DNA of 17,066 bases. Origin: a candidate division KSB1 bacterium (GTDB lineage Bacteria; Zhuqueibacterota; JdFR-76; DREG01). Position 1 is the stretch's first letter. Every line of letters begins with the position of its first letter. The notes under the pieces are model-generated. The model did not search any database, had not been told where the DNA came from, and saw nothing but the letters and a program-made list of their open reading frames with translations. Positions 230 to 11,583 of this stretch are shown here, piece after piece. The translations under genes were made by a program, and so were the position numbers. The stretch spans positions 1 through 17,066 of the forward strand of contig JADFJB010000103.1 in assembly GCA_022566355.1 (NCBI GenBank), written 5' to 3'.

Positions 230-1306
230 ATGAACTCTCACCTCATCAAAATCCTGGTTTTAGGCTGCGGCAACATGGGCTCATCACACGCGAGAGCTTA
301 TAAAAACCTGGATGGATTCCAGATTGTCGGGCTCATTGCCAGAAGTCCGGATAGACGAAATCCTCTTGCCAAAGAATTAGGTGATATCGCTCAATTCGAT
401 AACGTGGATAACGCCATCGAATCTTCCCGGGCAAATGCAATCGCAATCTGCACTTATCCTGACAGTCATCATGAATTTGCGATCAAATGTCTCAATGCCG
501 GTTTACATGTTTTCATCGAAAAGCCAATTGCCGAGACAGTTGAGCAGGCGAGGGAAGTGACAACCCTTGCCGAGCAAAAAGGCAAAAAAGTAGTGGTTGG
601 TTATATTTTACGCCATCATCCGGCCTGGATTCAGTTTATTGAACTCGCTCAAACTTTAGGCAAACCGCTGGTGATGCGAATGAATCTAAATCAACAAAGT
701 AAAAGTGATGAATGGATTACGCACAAAAAACTAATGCAATCTATGTCACCTATTGTCGATTGCGGGGTGCACTATGTGGATGTCATGTGCCAAATGACCC
801 GCAGTAAGCCAATACAAGTTCAGGCAATCGGCGCTCGTTTAACCGACGAAATCGATACGGAAATGTACAACTACGGCCAATTGCAAGTGATTTTTGAAGA
901 TAAATCCGTAGGTTGGTATGAAGCCGGTTGGGGTCCGATGATGAGCGAAACAGCCTATTTCGTCAAAGATGTGATTGGACCAAAAGGATGTGTCAGCATC
1001 GTTGAACCTCAGGATGATCGTGAAAATTCTTCTGAGATAGATTCCCATACCAAAGTTTCTGCTTTGAAAAAACATTCTGCTGTATTAAATTACAAGGGTG
1101 AATTTGAACAAAAGGATATTCTTATCGATGTCAGCGACGAACCGGACCACCAGGAGTTGTGTAACCGGGAACAATCTTTTTTTCTCAAGGCAATTCGGGG
1201 AAATGTAGATTTAACGGATCACTTAAATGATGCAATAAATAGTTTGCGAATTGTTCTGGCAGCAGATGAATCAATTCGAACCGGACAGGTTGTTAAATTA
1301 ATGTGA
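230..1306 (+). CDS. Gfo/Idh/MocA family oxidoreductase, cytoplasmic
   Basis: This is an NAD(P)-dependent sugar or polyol dehydrogenase of the Gfo/Idh/MocA family (358 residues from this start). An N-terminal Rossmann fold is marked by GCGNMG at residues 12-17 and the family motif EKP at 97-99. The C-terminal substrate domain carries the expected Asp177...His181 pair (DCGVH). There is no signal peptide or Tat motif, so it should act in the cytoplasm, unlike the two exported relatives in this window. I chose ATG 230 because the upstream in-frame GTG at 200 would add ten residues encoded by the arm of a palindromic repeat, and family members start just before the first beta strand (HLIKILVLG). 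No good Shine-Dalgarno is visible. The substrate cannot be named; oxidation or reduction of a 3-keto sugar is an inference from the downstream DUF1080 gene. Confidence 0.9.
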   Translation: MNSHLIKILVLGCGNMGSSHARAYKNLDGFQIVGLIARSPDRRNPLAKELGDIAQFDNVDNAIESSRANAIAICTYPDSHHEFAIKCLNAGLHVFIEKPIAETVEQAREVTTLAEQKGKKVVVGYILRHHPAWIQFIELAQTLGKPLVMRMNLNQQSKSDEWITHKKLMQSMSPIVDCGVHYVDVMCQMTRSKPIQVQAIGARLTDEIDTEMYNYGQLQVIFEDKSVGWYEAGWGPMMSETAYFVKDVIGPKGCVSIVEPQDDRENSSEIDSHTKVSALKKHSAVLNYKGEFEQKDILIDVSDEPDHQELCNREQSFFLKAIRGNVDLTDHLNDAINSLRIVLAADESIRTGQVVKLM

Positions 1307-1323
1307 GAATGAAACAAAGTAGA

Positions 1324-1395
1324 CAGAGGAACAAAGGCACAAAGTAACAGAGGCACAAAGCAAAAAAGTGACGAAGGAGCAAAGGCATAAAGAAT
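1324..1395. repeat. Degenerate tandem repeat, three 24-bp units
   Basis: Three A/G-rich units of 24 bp (1324-1347, 1348-1371, 1372-1395) share the pattern c-GAGG-x-ACAAAG followed by another A-rich half ending in AAAG. A partial unit precedes them. The reverse strand reads as long Leu/Cys/Ser/Phe open frames, a typical artefact of this repeat type, so I see it as non-coding. Confidence 0.6.
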
Positions 1396-1400
1396 AATAG

Positions 1401-1457
1401 CCCAGGAATTTATTCCTGGGTGAACGAAACAAAAAAAATGTAAAGTCCCGAAGGGAC
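1401..1457. repeat. Two-hairpin intergenic repeat
   Basis: A perfect 9-bp inverted repeat, CCCAGGAAT/ATTCCTGGG (1401-1409 and 1412-1420, 2-nt loop), is followed 24 nt later by a 5-bp hairpin GTCCC-GAA-GGGAC (1445-1457). The paired arrangement, with a run of A between, looks like a known class of dispersed two-hairpin elements. Neither hairpin is followed by a T-tract, so neither is a convincing terminator. Confidence 0.5.
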
Positions 1458-1511
1458 GGATGAAAAAACGAGGAACAAAAGTAAAAATCAAAAATAATCA
1501 TCAACTACCTG

Positions 1512-1553
1512 TCATTGCGAGGAGTCCCGATCTGTCGGGATGACGAAGCAATC
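1512..1553. repeat. Palindromic repeat, ATTGCGAGGAG type
   Basis: The element has outer arms ATTGC (1514-1518) and GCAAT (1548-1552) and an inner pair TCCCGA (1525-1530) / TCGGGA (1535-1540). Elements reading 'cattgcgaggag...gacgaagcaat' occur between genes in many unrelated bacteria (general knowledge). It is open in the frame of the following transporter gene and would give a spurious N-terminal extension from a TTG at 1515. Confidence 0.6.
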
Positions 1554-1568
1554 TTATACATTATAGCG

Positions 1569-1574
1569 AAGGAG
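1569..1574 (+). promoter_or_regulatory. Ribosome binding site deciding the transporter start
   Basis: AAGGAG directly abuts the ATG at 1575 (no spacer) but lies 6 nt before an in-frame TTG at 1581. By spacing, TTG 1581 is the better initiation codon; by codon identity, ATG 1575 is. The two products differ by two residues. Confidence 0.5.
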
Positions 1575-2816
1575 ATGCCATTGAAAGGCAAAATTTACGC
1601 ACAACTTAGCGTTATGATGTTTCTGCAATTCTTTATCTGGGGTGCATGGTTTGTTACACTGGGGACATACCTTACGACAATTGGTTTCTCCGGCAGCCAG
1701 ATTGGCTACACTTATTTGATGAACAATATCGGCGCAATACTTTCGCCTTTTTTTATTGGCATGATCGCCGATAGATACTTTTCTTCCGAAAAAGTTTTGG
1801 GCATCTTGCATCTTTTGGGTGGTCTGGTTATCTATTTTGCGTCTGGTATTACAGATATGTGGCCACTGATTATGGGACTCTTTCTCTATAATTTGTGCTA
1901 TATGCCAACTCTTGCACTGGTTAATGCTGTCTCTTTTAATCAAATGGAAAAACCGGATGCACAATTTCCGAAAGTTCGGGTTTGGGGCACTATTGGTTGG
2001 ATCGTCGCCGGTTTGGTCATCACATTTATTCAATTCAATTTCAATAAAGAAGTAGAAGCAAGTTCGGTTCCTCTGAAAATGGCCGCAATCGCTTCAATTC
2101 TAATGGGCTTATATTCTTTCACTTTGCCAAACACGCCTCCTAAAAATGTCGGTAAGGATGTAAGTATAGGAGATATCCTTGGAGTGAAAGCTCTTCGATT
2201 ACTCAAAGACCGCTCCTTTTTAATCTTTGCCATGTGTTCGTTGTTGATCTCCATACCGCTGGCTTTTTATTACAATTTCACAAATATGTTCCTCAACGAT
2301 TTAGGCATGGAAGGCGTTGCGGGCAAACAGACCATGGGTCAGATGTCGGAAGTGATTTTTATGATTTTGATGCCCTGGTTTTTCATTCGTCTCGGAATCA
2401 AAAAAATGCTCCTGATTGGTATGGCTGCCTGGGTGGTTCGCTATGCGTTTTTTGCCTGGGGTGATCTCGGCGGTCTTGTTTGGATGCTTTATTTGGGTAT
2501 TGTTCTGCATGGTATCTGTTATGATTTTTTCTTTGTAACAGGCCAGATTTACGTTGATAAGAAGGCTGATAAGGAAATCCGTGCCAGCGCACAAGGATTT
2601 ATCGCGTTGCTTACCTATGGGGTTGGACTTGGAATCGGTTCAGTACTCTCCGGAAAAATTGTCGACCTGTTTACCACAGATGGAGCCAAAGATTGGACAT
2701 CAATTTGGTGGATGCCCTGTATTTTTGCTGCATTTGTGACGGTTCTGTTTTACTTGCTTTTTAAAGAGAACAATCAGTCTGCGACTGAAACCAGTGCTGA
2801 AACACAAGTTGCATAA
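1575..2816 (+). CDS. NupG-like MFS transporter (nucleoside:H+ symporter family)
   Basis: This is a 413-residue inner-membrane carrier with about twelve hydrophobic segments, related to E. coli NupG/XapB (Nuc_H_symport). Recognisable signatures are LSVMMFLQFFIWGAWFVTLG near residues 11-30, YMPTLALVN at 109-117, and FPKVRVWGTIGW at 131-142, which match the NupG pattern 'FLQ..iWG.W...LG', 'YMPTL.L.N' and 'FP..R.WGTIG'. E. coli NupG transports nucleosides by proton symport. Relatives next to Gfo/Idh and DUF1080 genes may carry sugars or glycosides, so the substrate is open. The start is ATG 1575 or TTG 1581; the further upstream TTG at 1515 lies in a palindromic repeat and is rejected. The next gene starts 11 nt after the stop, so the two are probably co-transcribed. 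Confidence 0.88.
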   Translation: MPLKGKIYAQLSVMMFLQFFIWGAWFVTLGTYLTTIGFSGSQIGYTYLMNNIGAILSPFFIGMIADRYFSSEKVLGILHLLGGLVIYFASGITDMWPLIMGLFLYNLCYMPTLALVNAVSFNQMEKPDAQFPKVRVWGTIGWIVAGLVITFIQFNFNKEVEASSVPLKMAAIASILMGLYSFTLPNTPPKNVGKDVSIGDILGVKALRLLKDRSFLIFAMCSLLISIPLAFYYNFTNMFLNDLGMEGVAGKQTMGQMSEVIFMILMPWFFIRLGIKKMLLIGMAAWVVRYAFFAWGDLGGLVWMLYLGIVLHGICYDFFFVTGQIYVDKKADKEIRASAQGFIALLTYGVGLGIGSVLSGKIVDLFTTDGAKDWTSIWWMPCIFAAFVTVLFYLLFKENNQSATETSAETQVA

Positions 2817-2827
2817 GGTGCACATTC

Positions 2828-4099
2828 ATGTTAGAAAATCCATTGTTTAGTCGTCGAAAATTTATTAAAACATCGCTTGCGACCGCAGCCGCATTTACTA
2901 TTGTTCCGCGCCATGTTCTCGGGGGCCCCGGTTTTATAGCACCCAGCGATCAATTGACAAAAGCGATTATTGGAGTAGGAGGGATGGGATCAGCCCATAT
3001 AAACTATCCTTACTTCAAGCTGTTAGCCGTGTGCGATGTCGATGAAAATCACTTAAAATCTGCTTTGGTACGTGCAGGTAAAGATGTAACCGGCTATAAA
3101 GATTTTCGTGAAGTTTTGGAACGCCCGGATATTGATGTCATCACTATTGCAACACCGCCGCACTGGCATGCATTGATGTCCATTGCCGCTGCACAGGCAG
3201 GCAAAGATATTTGGTGTGAAAAACCGATGACCCGGACAATCGGAGAGGGCAGGAAAGTCATCGAAGCGGTGCAAAAAAATGGCAGGATTTTTCGTATCAA
3301 TACCTGGTTCCGGTTCCGCAGTAATTATTATGGTTTCGGCACTCCGGTAAAACCCATCAAAAAATTGGTTGATAGTGGTATGTTGGGTTGGCCGTTAAAA
3401 ATAACAGTGAGTGCAAATACCGGCTTCGCCTGGAAATTTTTCTGGAGTGGGAAAACTCATATGCAACCCGAATGGACGCCGCAGGAATTGGATTACGACA
3501 ACTGGTTAGGACCGGCGCCCTATAAGCCCTATAATCCTCATAGGGTGCACCAAACTTTTCGGGGATATTGGGATTATGACGGCGGCGGACTGGGAGATAT
3601 GGGTCAGCATTATTTGGATCCGGTTCAATACATTTTAGGGAAGGATGATACCAGTCCTGTCGAAATCGAAGCGGATGCACCCCAGGCACATCCGGATGCG
3701 GTGGGATCGTGGCGTCTAATCTGGATGAAATACGCCGATGGTTGTGAGATTATACTGGATGGGGAAGCCAAAGAAGAAAATACCCCGTTTATCGAAGGCC
3801 CTAATGGAAAACTATACAAAGACTTTAAGTCGGACATTCCTAAATTGAAAGAAAAATTAGCGGCCTTTCCGGATCCTGAACCGCAATTAACAGACTTTTA
3901 CCAGGCGGTACAAAATCGACAAAAATTTACTCTAAATGAAGAAAATGCCCATCGCTCTGCTACCTTGATTAATTTAGGTAAAATTGCCGTTCGCCTGGGG
4001 CGAAAGCTCTATTTTGACCCGGTGAAACAAGAGTTTATAAACGATGATCTAGCGAACCGGCTCATCAATCAACCTATGCGAGCGCCTTGGGTGCTATAA
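2828..4099 (+). CDS. Tat-exported Gfo/Idh/MocA family oxidoreductase
   Basis: This is a 423-residue NAD(P)-dependent oxidoreductase. A twin-arginine signal occupies the N-terminus (SRRKFIKTSLATAAAF, Arg9-Arg10), so the folded enzyme with bound cofactor is expected outside the inner membrane. The Rossmann motif GVGGMG is at residues 49-54, EKP at 131-133, and the substrate-domain pair Asp257...His261 in GDMGQH. The W/Y-rich middle (NWLGPAPYKPYNPHRVHQTF) is typical of the exported branch common in Planctomycetota and Bacteroidota; related members act as glycosidases (GH109) or sugar oxidoreductases. A GGTG Shine-Dalgarno-like element overlaps the preceding stop region, 7 nt before the ATG. It is probably translated from the same mRNA as the transporter upstream and the DUF1080 lipoprotein downstream. 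Oxidation of a glycoside at C3 is inferred from context. Confidence 0.9.
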   Translation: MLENPLFSRRKFIKTSLATAAAFTIVPRHVLGGPGFIAPSDQLTKAIIGVGGMGSAHINYPYFKLLAVCDVDENHLKSALVRAGKDVTGYKDFREVLERPDIDVITIATPPHWHALMSIAAAQAGKDIWCEKPMTRTIGEGRKVIEAVQKNGRIFRINTWFRFRSNYYGFGTPVKPIKKLVDSGMLGWPLKITVSANTGFAWKFFWSGKTHMQPEWTPQELDYDNWLGPAPYKPYNPHRVHQTFRGYWDYDGGGLGDMGQHYLDPVQYILGKDDTSPVEIEADAPQAHPDAVGSWRLIWMKYADGCEIILDGEAKEENTPFIEGPNGKLYKDFKSDIPKLKEKLAAFPDPEPQLTDFYQAVQNRQKFTLNEENAHRSATLINLGKIAVRLGRKLYFDPVKQEFINDDLANRLINQPMRAPWVL

Positions 4100-4108
4100 A
4101 GATTTTTT

Positions 4109-4134
4109 GACTGGATTGACAGGATGAACAAGAT
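4109..4134. repeat. Short dispersed-type repeat
   Basis: Two imperfect 9-mers, GGATTGACA (4113-4121) and GGATGAACA (4122-4130), stand in tandem within the 41-nt gap. The pattern 'ggattgacaggatgaac' is a recurrent non-coding sequence in environmental bacterial genomes, from memory. It occupies the place where a ribosome binding site would be expected, and none is clear. Confidence 0.35.
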
Positions 4135-4140
4135 AAAGAT

Positions 4141-7100
4141 ATGAGAATAATTTTACGCGGATTCACAATTATATTTTTTAGTTTAATTTTATACAGCTGT
4201 ACGGCGAACAGGAGTGAATTAACTTCAACTTCCGCTACAAAAGGATTCACAATTGAAAAACTGATATCTCGTTTACCTGCCCGCGATGATTTTGAAAGAG
4301 AGTATCTCTTTGGTTCTATTATCAGATTTGGCTCCGCTGGAATTCAGCAGATTTGCCTAAAACTAGATACAGAAGACGATACCCAGGCTCAATTAGCTTT
4401 GAATGGATTGGCCACTTATGTAACTCGTCCAAATGCAGAAAACGAAAGAAAACTCTTCACTAAAGGAATTGGGGTTGCATTAAAGTCAAGCTCAAATTTC
4501 AATATCAGCGCCTTCCTCATTCGGCAATTGCAGTTTGCCGGTGGCGATGAATCAGTCGAATTATTAGCAAAATATTTGACCGATAATAGACTTTGTGAAC
4601 CGGCAACCCGGGCGCTTCTAAGTATAGGCACACCCAAGGCTGAAAAGGGTTTCATCAAAACATTATCAAAAATCAACGCTTCAAATCGCATAACCATCAT
4701 AAAAGCATTGGGTGAATTTCGCAGTCAAAGCGCTGTAAGCCAAATTCGCGAATATGCAAACAGCAATAATCGAGATCTAAAAATGGCGAGTTTGTATGCC
4801 CTCGCAAATATCGGCGATTCTGCTTCTAAAGATATTCTTGATAAAAATTTGAGCGAATCATCTGGTTTTGAAAAAGCGAAAATCAATTCCTTATTCCTCT
4901 TGTTTGCGCAAAGATTGGCAGAAAATGGTCATAAAGATATGAGCGTCGAAATTTGTCGACAATTGATGCAAAGAGAAAATACTGAAACGAATATTCAAAC
5001 TGCCGCTTTGGGCACATTAGTCGATGTTCTGGGTGAAGCTGCTCAACCAGATTTATTGTCAGCAGTAGATAGTAATCAGAAAGCATTACAAATAGGGGCA
5101 ATCGATCTTGCCAACAAAATTAAGGGCCCAAATCAAACTGCACAATGGGTGGAAATAATCGATCAAGTGAGGCCTGATATTAGCGCAAGAATTTTGCAAA
5201 TGTTGGGAGAACGCGGTGACATTTCTGCTTTGCCGTCTATCCAAAAAGCCATGAGAAGTGACAATCAAATCATTCAAATAGCAGCCATTCAATCTGCGGT
5301 AAAGTTAGGCGGGTCAAGTGCGATCCCTGGTCTTTTGAATACTTTTAAGCGCTCTCAAGATTCTGAAATCATCCAAACGATCCAGGATCAGTTACTGTAT
5401 CTTCCTGGAACCGAAATCGTTCGACTGGCAGTTGAAACACTGCCAGGATCTACACCAAAAGTAAAAATTGCCATTCTTGAGTTCCTGGCGGCGCGAAATG
5501 CCAGAAATTACTCCGAATTGGTTTTTCGACAAATCAGCCAAAGTGAACCTGAAGTTCAAATTGCTGCGATCAAAGCACTGGAAAGCTTAGCTAGTGCGCA
5601 AGACTTGCCGAGGTTGATAGATGTATTACTCACTTCAGAAAACAATGTGCTGCAATCAACGTTGCAAAAAACCATTGCAGCGCTGGTTAAAAAAAGCCCC
5701 GATTCTCAAGAGCAGCAATCATATCTTCTAACTAAACTCGAAGGCGCTTCTGCTGATCAGAAGAAACACCTGTTGCCGGTGATCGGAAGGATTGGTGGAG
5801 AATCGGCAGTCAGCGTAGTTGCTGGAGAAACACAAAATATGGATCCTGGCATCAAGGATGCAGCCATCCGAGCCCTGGCTGATTGGCCGGATGAAAGTGC
5901 CATCGATCCATTATTTAAAATTGCGAGTTCAGAAGATAGCTTGACTTATCATGTTCTGGCGTTGCGAGCATGTGCCCGAATTGCCGGCGTCTCTGATTTG
6001 TCTGCAGAAAAGAAAATCGATATTTATAACAAAATTCTTGCAACTGCAAAACGTCCGGATGAAAAGAAACTGGCTTTGGCTGGTTTAGCAGAAATCAAAC
6101 AAACAGAATCTCTGCGAACATTAACGTCTTACCTTGCCAATAACGATTTAAGTCTGGAAGCGTCATTGGCAGCTATTAATGTTTCTTCGGAATATCATCC
6201 GGAAAACGGTGAATTAGGCGGTTCTGAAATTGCCATGGCGTTTATCGAAGAAATGGTAGAACCGGACATTCATTTTCAATTAAAGAAAATCATTGAGCAG
6301 GACAATCTGAATCGACCTCCGAAAGGATTTACTTCCTTGTTTAATGGCATCGATTTAAGTGGTTGGAAAGGCCTGGTTGAAAATCCAGTCAAACGGGCAA
6401 AAATGAGTAGAGAAGAATTGGCCCGGACACAAGTAAAAGCAGACAGCATCATGAATGTCCACTGGCGCGTGGAAGATGGAATTCTGCTTTTCGATGGCGA
6501 GGGCTTTAATCACCTGTGCACCAGGAAAGATTATGGCGATTTCGAAATGCTGGTCGACTGGAAAATCGAAAAGAATGGTGACAGCGGCTTGTATTTGCGT
6601 GGATCGCCGCAAGTGCAGATCTGGGATCCGGAACAATGGCAAGTAGGTTCCGGTGGATTATACAACAACCAAAAAGGCCCCAGTAAGCCATCCGTAATAG
6701 CGGATATGCCGATTGGAGAGTGGAATACATTTCGTATAAAAATGATCGGTGACCGGGTCACCATTCACCTCAATGATCTTCTGGTTGTTGACAATGTCGT
6801 CTTGGAAAATTACTGGGAACGGGATAAACCGATTTATGCCACAGGACAAATTGAACTGCAGACGCATGACAGTCCGGTATATTTCAGGAATATCTATATC
6901 CGCGAAATTCCTCGGCAAGAACCGTTATTCGAAGGCGACCTTTTCAATGGCAAAGATCTAAGCGGATGGCAGCCGATTGGCAGTCCGGAGGGAAGTTGGC
7001 AAGTAGAAGATGGTGTCCTGTTTACCGATGGCAAGGGCGGAGGTTGGCTTTCTACCACTCAAGAATTTGCCAACTTCAAATTGGAATTGGAATTTCGTGT

Positions 7101-7512
7101 TCCAGATGGCGGCAACAGCGGTGTATTCCTGCGAGCGCCTCACGAAGGCGATCCTGCTTATACTGGCATGGAAGTCCAGGTGTTGGATGACTATGCCGAA
7201 AAATATGCGAAGCTAAGGCCCTGGCAATATACTGGCAGCGTTTATGCGGTTCAGGCGCCTTCTTCCCGAGCCAGTAAAAAAGCCAACGAATGGCAAAAAA
7301 TGATCATTATTTGTAATGGCCCAAAAGTGACCGTCGTCCTGAATGACATTGAAATCATCAACACAAATTTGATCGATCATTTGGAAAAGGCACGAACCAA
7401 TCCTGGGATAAAGAGGCGAAAGGGTTACATTGGGTTACAAAACCATAGCACGAAGATTGAATATCGAAATATTAGATTGCAGGAGTTGGAGTTAGTCACT
7501 TCAGATAATTAA
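4141..7512 (+). CDS. HEAT-repeat lipoprotein with two DUF1080 (3-keto-disaccharide hydrolase) domains
   Basis: This is a 1123-residue predicted lipoprotein. The N-terminal hydrophobic segment ends in the lipobox LYSC, with Cys20 as the lipidation site. Residues from about 50 to 715 are a long run of HEAT-like helical pairs (phrases such as 'IIKALGEFRSQSAVSQI', 'AIQSAVKLGGSSAIPGLL' and 'AIRALADWPDESAIDPL' repeat with roughly 30-40 residue spacing). Two consecutive DUF1080 domains follow: about 729-924 (SLFNGIDLSGWKGL, WRVEDGILLFDG, GDSGLYLRGSPQVQIWD) and about 928-1117 (LFNGKDLSGWQPIG, WQVEDGVLFTDG, GNSGVFLRAP, GMEVQVLDD). DUF1080 is a concanavalin-like fold now named 3-keto-disaccharide hydrolase. 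The protein should sit on the periplasmic or outer face. It lies 41 nt after the Tat-exported oxidoreductase, which could supply 3-keto-glycosides. The HEAT region may be a scaffold or carbohydrate-binding platform (inference). Confidence 0.9.
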   Translation: MRIILRGFTIIFFSLILYSCTANRSELTSTSATKGFTIEKLISRLPARDDFEREYLFGSIIRFGSAGIQQICLKLDTEDDTQAQLALNGLATYVTRPNAENERKLFTKGIGVALKSSSNFNISAFLIRQLQFAGGDESVELLAKYLTDNRLCEPATRALLSIGTPKAEKGFIKTLSKINASNRITIIKALGEFRSQSAVSQIREYANSNNRDLKMASLYALANIGDSASKDILDKNLSESSGFEKAKINSLFLLFAQRLAENGHKDMSVEICRQLMQRENTETNIQTAALGTLVDVLGEAAQPDLLSAVDSNQKALQIGAIDLANKIKGPNQTAQWVEIIDQVRPDISARILQMLGERGDISALPSIQKAMRSDNQIIQIAAIQSAVKLGGSSAIPGLLNTFKRSQDSEIIQTIQDQLLYLPGTEIVRLAVETLPGSTPKVKIAILEFLAARNARNYSELVFRQISQSEPEVQIAAIKALESLASAQDLPRLIDVLLTSENNVLQSTLQKTIAALVKKSPDSQEQQSYLLTKLEGASADQKKHLLPVIGRIGGESAVSVVAGETQNMDPGIKDAAIRALADWPDESAIDPLFKIASSEDSLTYHVLALRACARIAGVSDLSAEKKIDIYNKILATAKRPDEKKLALAGLAEIKQTESLRTLTSYLANNDLSLEASLAAINVSSEYHPENGELGGSEIAMAFIEEMVEPDIHFQLKKIIEQDNLNRPPKGFTSLFNGIDLSGWKGLVENPVKRAKMSREELARTQVKADSIMNVHWRVEDGILLFDGEGFNHLCTRKDYGDFEMLVDWKIEKNGDSGLYLRGSPQVQIWDPEQWQVGSGGLYNNQKGPSKPSVIADMPIGEWNTFRIKMIGDRVTIHLNDLLVVDNVVLENYWERDKPIYATGQIELQTHDSPVYFRNIYIREIPRQEPLFEGDLFNGKDLSGWQPIGSPEGSWQVEDGVLFTDGKGGGWLSTTQEFANFKLELEFRVPDGGNSGVFLRAPHEGDPAYTGMEVQVLDDYAEKYAKLRPWQYTGSVYAVQAPSSRASKKANEWQKMIIICNGPKVTVVLNDIEIINTNLIDHLEKARTNPGIKRRKGYIGLQNHSTKIEYRNIRLQELELVTSDN

Positions 7513-7744: not shown

Positions 7745-8282
7745 ATGAATAAAATTGATCTGAAAAAATATGATATAAAAATGATTCAAATGGGCATCAA
7801 TTTTTGTATTTCCGCTTGTGTAGAATCTATGTTACGCTACCTTGCAAAACACATTCCTTATGCTCGCTTTCCTTTTGTTAACGTTTCTCTGGTTCAAGAG
7901 TATATCATGGGTTTAATGGTTATGAATACTTCCGACCACTTACCGTCGTTTGGCGCCATAAGAGATCACGTGGCTTGCAAATGCTGCAGATTTTGATATA
8001 GAAGTATTTTATCCTGACACATTCGATGATTGGCTTATAAATATCAAAAAAGAAATTGATGATAATTGTCCCATCGCCATTGTAACAAAACTTTCCTTCG
8101 GAGTTCATGCTCGTACTGTTCTTGGCTATGATGATGTTTCAAAAGAACTTATACTTTACAATCCTGGTATGACAATGACTCAGAAGTTTCCGTTACAAAA
8201 GGGAGATCAATATTGTATAGTATCTGGAGTTGAGAAATTTTCCTATGAAACAGCTCAGGAAGATTTTGAAGGTACAAAATAG
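7745..8282 (+). pseudogene. C39-like (papain-like) cysteine peptidase, frameshifted
   Basis: The first frame gives 83 residues and stops at 7994-7996. The second frame (TAG at 8280-8282) continues from about 7962 as EITWLANAADFDIEVFYP and runs about 100 residues to a natural end. Removing one base near 7960-7966 joins them into a protein of about 178 residues. The joined protein has the layout of C39-like peptidase folds: Gln15 before Cys21 in NFCISAC, a distant His in SFGVHARTVLGYDD, and LYNPG supplying the Asn/Asp position. Such domains cleave peptides or leader sequences, or act as transglutaminase- or acetyltransferase-like enzymes; the substrate is unknown. There is no signal peptide. 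The strong ribosome binding site suggests either a recent mutation or a sequencing/assembly error rather than an old relic. Confidence 0.7.
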
Positions 8283-8534: not shown

Positions 8535-8840
8535 ATGCCGAGAAAAATCAGTGAAATACAGCAAATAATACAAAAACATGAATATCGCTTTTCAGATCAT
8601 GCAGTTAAGAGAATGATTCAAAGATCAATCGCGCGACACGAAGTTGAGGAAGCTGTTTTGACAGGTGAAATTATTGAGGACTATCCTGAGGACAAATATT
8701 CGCCAAGTTGTCTCATTTATGGCCAAACAGAAGCAGGAAGGGATTTACATATTCAGGCTTCTTTTCCTCCGAAGGTTATTGTAATTACTTTGTATGAACC
8801 AGATCCGGAAAAATGGATCGATTGCCGAATTAGGAGGTAA
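8535..8840 (+). CDS. DUF4258 domain protein, putative toxin of a toxin-antitoxin pair
   Basis: This is a 101-residue soluble protein covering one DUF4258 domain. The diagnostic N-terminal block is FSDHAVKRMIQRSIARHEVEEAVLTGEIIEDYP (His and Arg near residues 22-30 and the 'eRgIs..eV..al..GeiiedYp' pattern, seen here as QRSIARHEVEEAVLTGEI). A C-terminal beta-rich part (LHIQASF, KVIVITLYEPDPEKW) follows. DUF4258 proteins are often encoded beside antitoxin-like genes and are suspected to have a RelE- or BrnT-like fold; their biochemistry is poorly known. The gene ends 6 nt before a YgiT-type zinc-finger gene, whose Shine-Dalgarno lies in its last two codons, so translation is probably coupled. 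There is no Shine-Dalgarno upstream of this ATG. Confidence 0.85.
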   Translation: MPRKISEIQQIIQKHEYRFSDHAVKRMIQRSIARHEVEEAVLTGEIIEDYPEDKYSPSCLIYGQTEAGRDLHIQASFPPKVIVITLYEPDPEKWIDCRIRR

Positions 8841-8846
8841 TTTTTA

Positions 8847-9083
8847 ATGAAATGTACTTTTTGTAGAGGAAAAGTCGAATCTCGAAAAGTAACCTTTGTT
8901 TATGATTATGACAATGATTACTTTTTAATCGAGAACGTACCTGCTGAAGTATGTGTACAATGTGGAGAGAAGACTTATTCTCCGGAAGTTACAGATGATT
9001 TAATTCATATTTCCCGAAAAACACTTAAACCTGCCAGGACAGTACAAGTGCCCGTGTTCGAATATACCAGTCAAGCCGTTTAG
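8847..9083 (+). CDS. YgiT-type zinc-finger protein, putative antitoxin
   Basis: This is a 78-residue protein with two zinc-ligand pairs, Cys3-x-x-Cys6 and Cys36-x-x-Cys39 (VCVQCGEKTYS), the YgiT/MqsA N-terminal zinc-finger arrangement. The C-terminus ends in a strand-like ARTVQVPVFEY, as in short YgiT-type proteins. It lacks the C-terminal helix-turn-helix of full-length MqsA (about 130 residues), so DNA binding and autoregulation would need another mechanism or partner. The ribosome binding site AGGAGG (8832-8837) lies in the final Arg-Arg codons of the DUF4258 gene, 9 nt before this ATG. Toxin-first order matches MqsR-MqsA and HigB-HigA. The role in neutralising the DUF4258 protein is inferred from pairing. 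Confidence 0.85.
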   Translation: MKCTFCRGKVESRKVTFVYDYDNDYFLIENVPAEVCVQCGEKTYSPEVTDDLIHISRKTLKPARTVQVPVFEYTSQAV

Positions 9084-9209: not shown

Positions 9210-10595
9210 ATGAGTAAACAAAACCCCGACAACTCAACACAAGCCAAAAACATCAACCGCCGTGGTTTTATCCGCTACTCAGCGGCAGCCGGCGCTGGAT
9301 TACTTCTTTCTTCTGTACTATCCAAAGCCGCCGCCAAACAACCACACCCGATCAATACCGCGATTATCGGGGTCGGTCGGCAAGGCAAAATTTTACTCGA
9401 TCTTCTCATTAAAATTCCAAATGTAAAAATGAAAGCGATTTGCGATATCTGGAAATATTCACAATTGATCGGTGAGAGGAGGTGCAAAAGCTACAATCAC
9501 ATCGTAACGGTTTATGAAGACTACAAAGAAATGCTGGCGAAAGAGAAAGAACTTGAAGCTGTTGTGATTGCCACACCGGATTTTGTTCATCATGAAATGA
9601 CCAACGCCTGCCTGCGGGCAGACTTGCATGTCTACTGTGAGAAGGAGATGTCCAACGATATCGAAAAAGCCCGCAGTATGGTGCAAACTGCAAAACAGAC
9701 AGGTAAATTATTGCAGATTGGCCATCAACGGCGCAGCAATCCGTATTATATCCATGCTCATCGGTTGATGCACAAGGACCGGGTTTTCGGCGATATCAAT
9801 TCTATCAATGGCCAGTGGAATCAGCAAAAGCAGATAAGACCGTTTCCGCCGCGCCTGGCGAGCAAATATCCTATTGCTCCGGCTTTATTAAAAAAGTGGG
9901 GATTTACTTCGATGTCGGATTTTTATTACTGGCGCTGGTTTAATAAATTTGCCGGCGGCCCCATGGCCGATTTAGGCTCGCACCAGGTCGATATCTTCAA
10001 TTGGTTTCTTGAAGCGCCGCCCGCCAGCGTATATGCGATCGGTGGCCTCGGTTATGCCCTTACCGAAGCCAAAGCAAACAATGTCGGTTTTACACCGGAA
10101 TGTCTTGATCATACACTCGCTTTGTACGAATGGAAAACCAAACAAGGCACGGTGAGGGGTTATTACCAGGTAAACCTGACCACAAGTTACAATGGCTTTT
10201 ATGAAGTTTTTATGGGCAAGAAAGGCTCTATGGTGATCTCCGAGATCCTGTCCAAACATGCCATGTTCAAAGAACGAAGCGCCGCTACCCTGGAATGGGA
10301 AGACGAGGCGGAAAAGCTTGAAATTGGCGGCGAGCAAGCCATGCTCTTCGATCCTTTGAAATCACGAAAAGCAAAAGGCAAAATGGACAAAGAGGGTTTA
10401 AAGATCGAACAAGATTTAGATAAACCTGCACATCAACCACACCTGGAAAATTTCTTTGCTGCCATTCGTGACGGTGTTCCGCTCAACTGTCCTGCAGAAG
10501 TCGGTTTCGAGACCTGTGTTTCTGTGTTAAAGACTAATGAGTCAGCTGTTACTGGGAAGAAGATTACATTCAATAGCCAAGATTTTGTTGCTTAG
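9210..10595 (+). CDS. Tat-exported Gfo/Idh/MocA family oxidoreductase, EKE variant
   Basis: This is a 461-residue exported NAD(P)-dependent oxidoreductase. The twin-arginine motif NRRGFIR (Arg17-Arg18) precedes a hydrophobic stretch and an AAA-type cleavage region. The Rossmann motif GVGRQG is at 54-59, and the substrate-domain pair Asp254...His258 in MADLGSHQVD. The usual EKP is CEKEMS here (143-148), keeping the Lys but replacing Pro with Glu. I recall CEKEMS in a subgroup of exported relatives, so this looks like a subfamily trait rather than damage. ATG 9210 is preferred because TTGGAG at 9198-9203 is its Shine-Dalgarno (6-nt spacer); the in-frame TTG 9198 would lie on top of it. A hairpin follows the gene, so it may be monocistronic. 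The substrate is unknown. Confidence 0.88.
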   Translation: MSKQNPDNSTQAKNINRRGFIRYSAAAGAGLLLSSVLSKAAAKQPHPINTAIIGVGRQGKILLDLLIKIPNVKMKAICDIWKYSQLIGERRCKSYNHIVTVYEDYKEMLAKEKELEAVVIATPDFVHHEMTNACLRADLHVYCEKEMSNDIEKARSMVQTAKQTGKLLQIGHQRRSNPYYIHAHRLMHKDRVFGDINSINGQWNQQKQIRPFPPRLASKYPIAPALLKKWGFTSMSDFYYWRWFNKFAGGPMADLGSHQVDIFNWFLEAPPASVYAIGGLGYALTEAKANNVGFTPECLDHTLALYEWKTKQGTVRGYYQVNLTTSYNGFYEVFMGKKGSMVISEILSKHAMFKERSAATLEWEDEAEKLEIGGEQAMLFDPLKSRKAKGKMDKEGLKIEQDLDKPAHQPHLENFFAAIRDGVPLNCPAEVGFETCVSVLKTNESAVTGKKITFNSQDFVA

Positions 10596-10608
10596 ATAGG
10601 TTAATCCT

Positions 10609-10643
10609 AAACCTCTCAGGTTTTAGAAACCTGAGAGGTTTTT
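10609..10643. terminator. Rho-independent terminator-like hairpin
   Basis: A perfect 15-bp inverted repeat AAACCTCTCAGGTTT / AAACCTGAGAGGTTT (10609-10623 and 10627-10641, loop TAG) is followed by TT, giving a five-T run at 10639-10643. A-runs on the left arm allow it to work in both directions. Similar 'acct..caggt' palindromes are also dispersed repeats in some genomes, so it may be both. It separates the oxidoreductase from apbE. Confidence 0.75.
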
Positions 10644-10659
10644 AGAATCGATTCTTCCT

Positions 10660-11583
10660 TTGTTAAATCCAACCAAATTCTCCCACAAAGCCATGGCGAC
10701 GGTATTCGAGATACTGCTCTTCGAAAATTCCGTCGACGCCGAACTTGTCAGCAATGCAATATTCGAGGAAATCGACCGCATCGAACAAGAGCTGAGTTAT
10801 TTCATTCCTTCGAGTGATATTTTCAGATTTAATCGATTGCAGGCCGGCCTGCCGTTACGACTGGGCGTGTCGGCATTTGATTGCATCACGCTTGCAAAAG
10901 AAGTCTATACTCAAACCAATGGCGCTTTCGATCCTACCGCAGGAGCATTAATCGCGGGGCGCAGACCCTGGGATGAACAGGAAGAAAATCCCATAGGGGG
11001 TATAGTTCCCCCTGAGAGTGAGGAGATGGCCCAAGTCGGAATGGATGCGATTGCTATTGATACTGAATCTCATAGCGCCACAAAACTGGCCGATGGCGTT
11101 ACAATCGATCTGGGCGGCATCGGGAAAGGCTATGCACTCGACCAGGCCAAAACCATTTTGGAAGATTGGGGAATTGAGACAGCGCTCATCCATGCAGGTC
11201 AGAGTACTTCTCTGCCATTGGGAGCGCCACCGGATCAAAAAGGATGGCCTATGCGCATCCTGGATCCACGCAATGAAAAAGATGAGCTGGCCAGGTTCGA
11301 ATTGCAAAATATGGTAATCAGTGCATCTGCTTCAATTAACGATTCTCATATTCTCGATCCATTTACAGGCGCTCCTGTTGAGAAACGATTGGGTGCGTGG
11401 GCCATCGCTGCAACGGGTGCAACGGCAGATGCGCTTTCGACTGCTTTTATGGTGATGGACTCAGAAAATATTCGGCGCTATTGCGAAGAACATTCTGATG
11501 TTTGGGCTTTCCTGGTAGAAATTGAAAACAGGATAAAATATTTTGGTGATTGGAAAAGATTTTCATTAGAATTGGTTTTTTAG
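10660..11583 (+). CDS. apbE: FAD:protein FMN transferase, ApbE family
   Basis: ApbE enzymes use FAD to attach FMN covalently to a Thr/Ser of target flavoproteins, with Mg2+. Family blocks appear in order: FSHKAMATVFEI (residues 7-18), DPTAGALIAG, IDLGGIGKGYALDQ (the 'DLGGIaKGyavD' motif), ALIHAGQSTSLPLGAP in place of the usual 'NaGGn...G', SHILDPFTGAPV, and ATADALSTAFMVM with the metal-binding Asp. At 307 residues it is near normal length, but it has no lipobox or signal peptide, whereas many characterised ApbE proteins are periplasmic lipoproteins. The TTG at 10660 has no Shine-Dalgarno; ATG 10693 is the next in-frame Met but would cut the FSHKAM block, so the start is uncertain. No FMN-binding target protein is visible in the window. 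Confidence 0.85.
   Translation: MLNPTKFSHKAMATVFEILLFENSVDAELVSNAIFEEIDRIEQELSYFIPSSDIFRFNRLQAGLPLRLGVSAFDCITLAKEVYTQTNGAFDPTAGALIAGRRPWDEQEENPIGGIVPPESEEMAQVGMDAIAIDTESHSATKLADGVTIDLGGIGKGYALDQAKTILEDWGIETALIHAGQSTSLPLGAPPDQKGWPMRILDPRNEKDELARFELQNMVISASASINDSHILDPFTGAPVEKRLGAWAIAATGATADALSTAFMVMDSENIRRYCEEHSDVWAFLVEIENRIKYFGDWKRFSLELVF

Follow-up and report, generated by a model that had tools for sequence, protein, structure and literature searches.

Non-hydrolytic breakdown of glycosides is a recently established alternative to the use of glycosidases. The 3-keto-glycoside locus BT2156-BT2160 of Bacteroides thetaiotaomicron encodes a glycoside 3-dehydrogenase of the Gfo/Idh family together with a DUF1080 protein. 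PMC9007349 cites BT2157 as a 3-ketotrehalose hydrolase, and a B. thetaiotaomicron DUF1080 protein of solved structure (PDB 8tda) is titled 3-keto-2-hydroxy-glucal hydratase BT2. The lactose route of Caulobacter crescentus (LacABC and CCNA_01705) comprises periplasmic 3-oxidation, cleavage by a DUF1080 protein, a transporter and a sugar reductase, and the succession of oxidation, cleavage, import and reduction was already proposed for lactose use in this organism (PMC9007349). The GlycDH-AtOGE-AtHYD-Gfo and levoglucosan operons of Agrobacterium tumefaciens cover oxidation, elimination, hydration and reduction by a Gfo protein (PMC10628242); they use a sugar-isomerase-like TIM-barrel eliminase and a putative hydratase instead of DUF1080, and no carrier is among the four enzymes described. 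Kastner et al. 2024, cited in PMC12101588, is one of the primary papers on this pathway.

The window analyzed here is the whole stretch of 17,066 nucleotides forming contig C103 of an assembly of 4.6 Mb and 98.5% completeness, the genome being coded G000. It carries four intact and co-directional (+) genes, A, B, C and D. By their families, C, D and A would bring together in one cluster a 3-dehydrogenase, a cleaving or hydrating enzyme and a Gfo reductase. The features are the following:

230..1306, + strand: A, Gfo/Idh/MocA oxidoreductase of the cytosol (PF01408, 101 bits; signal sequence absent), proposed to reduce 3-keto-sugars with NAD(P)H
1307..1580, no strand: A-B intergenic region, with short repeats and a palindrome
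1581..2816, + strand: B, YegT-type MFS carrier (Nuc_H_symport; PF03825, 419.7 bits), proposed to import the cleaved (keto-)sugar
2828..4099, + strand: C, Tat-exported Gfo/Idh/MocA protein, proposed glycoside 3-dehydrogenase (PF01408 and PF19051)
2828..2932, + strand: twin-arginine signal region of C (FSRRKFIK; R9, R10 and F12 invariant in alignments)
4141..7512, + strand: D, exported HEAT-DUF1080-DUF1080 protein of 1123 residues (HEAT_2 and two PF06439, 321 bits in total)
4252..6303, + strand: HEAT solenoid of D, residues 38-721 (PF13646; all-helical repeat in the AlphaFold model)
6325..6909, + strand: DUF1080 domain 1 of D, residues 729-923 (PF06439, 152.8 bits; D814/Q824 class)
6940..7488, + strand: DUF1080 domain 2 of D, residues 934-1116 (PF06439, 180.4 bits; N992/E1011 class)
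9210..10595, + strand: F, second Tat Gfo/Idh oxidoreductase, possible further member of the cluster

The start of B is most likely TTG 1581, to which we moved it from 1515 because the orthologues begin there and a GGAG lies 6 nt upstream.

We propose, with a probability of about 0.55, that A to D encode a compartmentalised non-hydrolytic route of glycoside catabolism. C, exported by Tat in a folded state with its NAD(P), would act in the periplasm and oxidise a glucoside or disaccharide at C3. D would beta-eliminate the 3-keto-glycoside and hydrate the 2-hydroxy-3-keto-glucal into a 3-keto-hexose, using one or both of its DUF1080 domains. B might then act as a YegT-type proton symporter importing the (keto-)sugar, which is the weakest step, and A would reduce the 3-keto-sugar to a hexose with cytosolic NAD(P)H. 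A preliminary description of the locus had put forward a compartmentalised route of oxidation, cleavage, import and re-reduction. Its enzymes are well supported, but the substrate of its carrier is assigned from context. Its cleavage of 3-keto-disaccharides by DUF1080 has to be recast: because of the titles of solved relatives and of PMC10628242, we replaced plain hydrolysis by elimination and hydration.

This chemistry is already covered by the B. thetaiotaomicron, Caulobacter, Agrobacterium and levoglucosan systems. What is new here is the architecture of D and the apparent role of a YegT-type carrier; a further difference is the strict pairing of an exported Gfo/Idh oxidant with a HEAT protein bearing DUF1080 domains of two classes (D/Q and N/E, defined below). 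The window differs from BT2156-BT2160 in that C scores far under the cut-off of BT_2158_fam, the DUF1080 domains of D are two, unlike each other and part of a HEAT protein, and a YegT-type carrier is included. In Caulobacter, the oxidant is LacABC and not a Tat Gfo/Idh protein, and the DUF1080 protein is single-domain.

The preliminary description named a lack of conserved co-occurrence among the findings that would refute its route; the genes do co-occur in relatives, although unevenly. A homologue of D stands next to C, on its downstream side, in 82 of the 87 loci of a survey that used C as query and covers the loci that have C, a few genomes present in both sets being counted twice. This adjacency is beyond chance. 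The exceptions are L055, L094, L123, L096 and L117, the last two ending at a contig edge. C is 65-78% identical in ten other genomes of the phylum and 65-74% identical in 80 named loci (Bacteroidota, KSB1, Calditrichia, Hydrogenedentota, Phycisphaerales, Aminicenantes, Acidobacteriota and others), the relatives surveyed being mostly metagenome assemblies. Outside the window, 76 homologues of D match HEAT and both DUF1080 domains. The pairing of the dehydrogenase with the unusual two-class DUF1080 protein persists across phyla that range from Bacteroidota, with Parabacteroides distasonis as one member, to Aminicenantes and Hydrogenedentota, although D is called a family 16 glycoside hydrolase in databases. 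In contrast, A and B are joined to C-D in a minority of loci: the order A-B-C-D is found in the window's genome, G001, G015 and L060 (Calditrichia), and A-B-C in L096, where the contig ends. B-C-D occurs without A at the locus in G034. Most C-D loci lack A and B, and therefore C-D functions without both or with unlinked partners. The conserved core is the C-D pair, and the four-gene set is a real but minority arrangement. L175, L188, L189, L171 and L176 are independent clusters that combine a carrier, a Gfo/Idh, a DUF1080 and a Tat Gfo/Idh protein.

The search of plasmid records with C gave one useful annotated match, from Parabacteroides. In Parabacteroides distasonis (NZ_OY725779.1, L206 5121-14728), the C-D pair lies behind sigma/FecR, SusD and arylsulfatase genes in a setting like a polysaccharide utilisation locus, and its D is annotated as a family 16 glycoside hydrolase.

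D starts with a signal that contains a lipobox-like LYSC and continues with some 680 residues of HEAT repeats and a pair of DUF1080 domains (mean AlphaFold pLDDT 86.8). It had been taken for a lipid-anchored DUF1080 hydrolase. The HEAT solenoid ahead of the two domains shows that it is not a simple protein of this kind. As to the anchor, D of the window has LYSC, but of 77 homologues only 10 show a lipobox pattern, and ordinary signal peptides prevail among the homologues. Judging from these signals, the export of D is conserved and lipid anchoring is not. Both DUF1080 domains score well above the Pfam gathering threshold (152.8 and 180.4 versus 26.8 bits), and Foldseek matches the DUF1080 part of D to 8tda and 8v31, titled 3-keto-2-hydroxy-glucal hydratase, and to 8rr2 and 9fbe, titled 3-keto-glycoside eliminase/hydratase.

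The catalytic residues of DUF1080 were deduced from conservation; a figure of PMC9765024 marks three putative active-site positions of the family. A profile alignment of 186 DUF1080 domains from the collected loci was used to define the classes. In all the HEAT-tandem proteins with both domains measured (68/68), the residues aligned with N992 and E1011 are Asp and Gln in domain 1 (D/Q), and Asn and Glu in domain 2 (N/E). The positions of Q1013, D1016 and H1102 are kept in both domains, their counterparts in domain 1 being Q826, D829 and H909. The alignment comprises 101 N/E and 79 D/Q domains, five odd ones and one left unaligned. Single-domain DUF1080 proteins are mostly N/E, and so are the solved hydratases in the alignments. 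The Asn/Glu pair plus Gln, Asp and His set of the solved members is complete in domain 2 only, domain 1 having Asp/Gln at the first two positions. In the tree, the tandem D/Q domains form one clade with a support of 100/100, a long stem and short internal branches, gathering 27 of the 28 D/Q rows; the remaining one is a long branch. Domain 2 of the window falls together with its counterparts from G002 and G043, whereas most relatives have their second domains elsewhere in the tree (with weak deep support). Because of this placement, we consider an exchange of the N/E partner in the window's lineage possible.

A rival reading of domain 1 is that the D/Q domain binds carbohydrate and only domain 2 is catalytic. 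We hold this to be a serious possibility, though less likely than not. Domain 1 has Gln in place of the Glu that nearly all the solved relatives shown and the N/E domains possess, and one PDB entry titled eliminase/hydratase has a single domain. However, the conservation of domain 1 is no lower than that of domain 2 (means of 0.70 and 0.66, respectively, with 0.45 for the HEAT part), it retains Gln, Asp and His, and its grouping into a single fully supported clade is unlike that of a degenerating duplicate.

A tentative argument for an eliminase role of the D/Q domain comes from fusions. A PF01261 TIM barrel is fused to an N/E DUF1080 domain in L166, L197 and L204 (detected by Pfam) and in L182, L191 and L196 (detected by a local profile), in proteins of 476-486 residues. 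Fused N/E domains of this phylum thus have one of two partners, a TIM barrel (in six proteins) or a D/Q domain. No separate TIM-barrel (PF01261) eliminase/hydratase was detected among the window proteins scanned; such proteins were found in related clusters. Of 69 HEAT-tandem genes, 1 has a TIM gene or domain within 5 kb, compared with 13 of 38 others, a contrast that serves as a lead and not as a test because the loci were sampled differently. L168, L171 and L176 have both a TIM gene and a D/Q-N/E tandem, which weakens any simple rule of replacement of the TIM barrel by a D/Q domain.

A was described at the outset as a cytoplasmic redox enzyme, and its Gfo/Idh domain and lack of signal sequence bear this out. 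Its membership of the pathway can be questioned, as it might serve another one (e.g. inositol or amino-sugar metabolism) and be transcribed apart from B-C-D. The 274-nt gap between A and B contains four near-copies of an 18-nt repeat at 1326-1487 and a palindrome at 1401-1420 that has one further occurrence in the whole genome, and the A orthologue of G034 is on a contig other than that of B-C-D. A promoter scan of the DNA gave fewer sites than shuffled DNA. Orthologues of A with 59-72% identity adjoin B or C in G001, G015, G012, L060 and L096, and lie upstream of them in G001, G015, L060 and L096, which makes a separate role for A doubtful.

The name NupG-type carrier suits B less well than YegT-type. 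The best PDB match of B is YegT of E. coli (8zoj), with 340 bits versus 233 for NupG. At 11 positions covering the pocket and the proton-coupling residues, B reads RTWAYQEHGYD, identical to YegT, and NupG reads RTFQNQEYGFD. In place of NupG F143, Q225, N228, Y318 and F322, B has W, A, Y, H and Y, as in YegT, so that the uridine-contact set of NupG (F143, N228, Y318 and F322) is replaced by W, Y, H and Y. The coupling residues D323/E264 common to NupG and YegT (PMC11979927) are also kept in B, and the GxxxD proton motif is G311-I-C-Y-D315.

The neighbours of such carriers were then compared. Among the 34 PF03825 loci of the phylum, a Gfo/Idh gene lies within 4 kb in 15, a DUF1080 gene in 9 and either in 18; the Gfo/Idh count has a p-value between 1e-12 and 3e-7 for an assumed background of 4-10% estimated from match counts. 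Gfo/Idh or DUF1080 is found near 11 of the 13 carriers with the YegT signature versus 7 of the 21 with other signatures (Fisher p = 0.005, uncorrected for relatedness). The two remaining YegT-signature carriers lie near contig ends, and the 21 others are mostly away from Gfo/Idh. The 81 neighbours of the 13 carriers include 19 Gfo/Idh (the commonest family), 7 DUF1080 (the third) and 4 TIM barrels. No nucleoside-salvage family appears among the 25 commonest neighbour families, 53 rarer families lying outside this list. The YegT pocket and the Gfo/Idh and DUF1080 enrichment support a sugar-type substrate for B, at the level of substrate class.

That B is a nucleoside transporter standing beside sugar genes by chance is unlikely. 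Its family name and its Pfam/TIGR annotation point that way, and NupG is a proven nucleoside symporter (PMC11979927), but the pocket of B is that of YegT, for which ITC found no significant nucleoside binding (PMC11979927), and sugar-related genes are enriched around carriers of its type. A strict nucleoside specificity, which the preliminary description had named as fatal to its route, is accordingly improbable.

An import role for B has a bearing on E. coli. YegT is an orphan transporter encoded in the yegTUV operon, which is not known to carry the sugar-oxidation genes found beside B. It is conceivable, though rather unlikely, that D carries out both elimination and hydration by itself on its HEAT scaffold, its D/Q domain being a second enzyme class that performs the TIM-barrel elimination step beside the N/E hydratase domain, and that keto-hexoses or related sugars are the cargo of the YegT branch, to which E. 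coli YegT belongs. This offers a concrete substrate idea for a carrier with a solved structure and without a known substrate.

C was correctly recognised as a periplasmic Tat redox enzyme: the twin-arginine pair of FSRRKFIK is present in 86 of 87 homologues. It scores 75 bits with PF01408 and has what is expected of Gfo/Idh/MocA glycoside 3-dehydrogenases, namely a Rossmann NAD(P)-binding domain, the EKP motif (E131-K132-P133) and an Asp/His pair (D257 and H261), these residues being invariant in the alignment. The AlphaFold model of C, of moderate quality (pLDDT 75.6), was compared with solved structures using Foldseek and VIA-align. Its best match is the trehalose-bound glucoside-3-dehydrogenase AL3 of Alistipes (Z 28.7 for 8tdh, and 28.5), followed by a glucuronide-3-dehydrogenase (Z 24.2) and DgpA1 (Z 24.1); a sequence-profile search gave the same top matches. 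The best NCBIfam match is the BT_2158_fam glycoside 3-dehydrogenase, with 164.2 bits, far below the cut-off of 750 bits, for which reason C was not filed as a BT_2158 equivalog. This score and an identity to AL3 of only about 21% keep the C3 regiochemistry putative. We thus propose that C is a putative glycoside 3-dehydrogenase, its C3 specificity being predicted from fold similarity to 8tdh. It is quite unlikely that C is instead a GFOR-type aldose or anhydro-sugar oxidoreductase, acting at C1 and regenerating its bound cofactor with a second sugar, with D only binding or trimming glycan: GFOR is indeed a Tat-exported, self-recycling enzyme, and GFOR (Z about 21.5-21.9) and the Caulobacter aldose-aldose oxidoreductase (Z 21.8) share the fold of C, but their matches are weaker than that of AL3 by about 7 Z units, and the DUF1080 protein to which C is locked has solved relatives that act on 3-keto-sugars.

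For C as a 3-dehydrogenase, the electrons taken up would have to leave its cofactor in the periplasm, and no electron acceptor is encoded among A to D. This weighs against the proposed route, as do the lack of A and B at most C-D loci, the low NCBIfam score, low identity to AL3 and moderate model of C, the missing TIM-barrel eliminase/isomerase, and the other-signature carriers lying mostly away from Gfo/Idh. The gene F directly follows D in G002, G015, G034 and L060, and in many genomes is itself followed by K, a seven-haem cytochrome c, and M, a b561-like membrane protein. The order is F-ApbE-K in G001. In the window, ApbE follows F with a terminator-like hairpin between them. In the window's genome, K and M are on contig C18, so that the F-K-M module is split over two contigs. 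The module is possibly a hint at an electron exit route for C, as a correlation only; a haem-linked partner would be unusual for an exported NAD(P)-type dehydrogenase.

F, K (with a C-terminal TM helix) and M were seen as a conserved module, often with ApbE nearby, at window 9210-11583, L193 4266-6689, L194, L195, L196, L197, L198 and L199. After D, an ORF at 7745-8281 of the window is apparently broken by a frameshift, its two halves being read in different frames. At 8535-9083, a DUF4258 ORF is followed by an MqsA-like ORF (below the Pfam cut-off, E 4e-6); this toxin-antitoxin-like pair sits between D and F, which are adjacent in relatives. The genome of the window also contains a second, ordinary cluster on contig C6 (L047 7733-12113), made of a Gfo/Idh, a TIM barrel, a single N/E DUF1080 and a C-type Gfo/Idh protein. 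Finally, contig C117 of G043 (L204) carries seven Gfo/Idh genes, a HEAT protein and a TIM-DUF1080 fusion within 18 kb.
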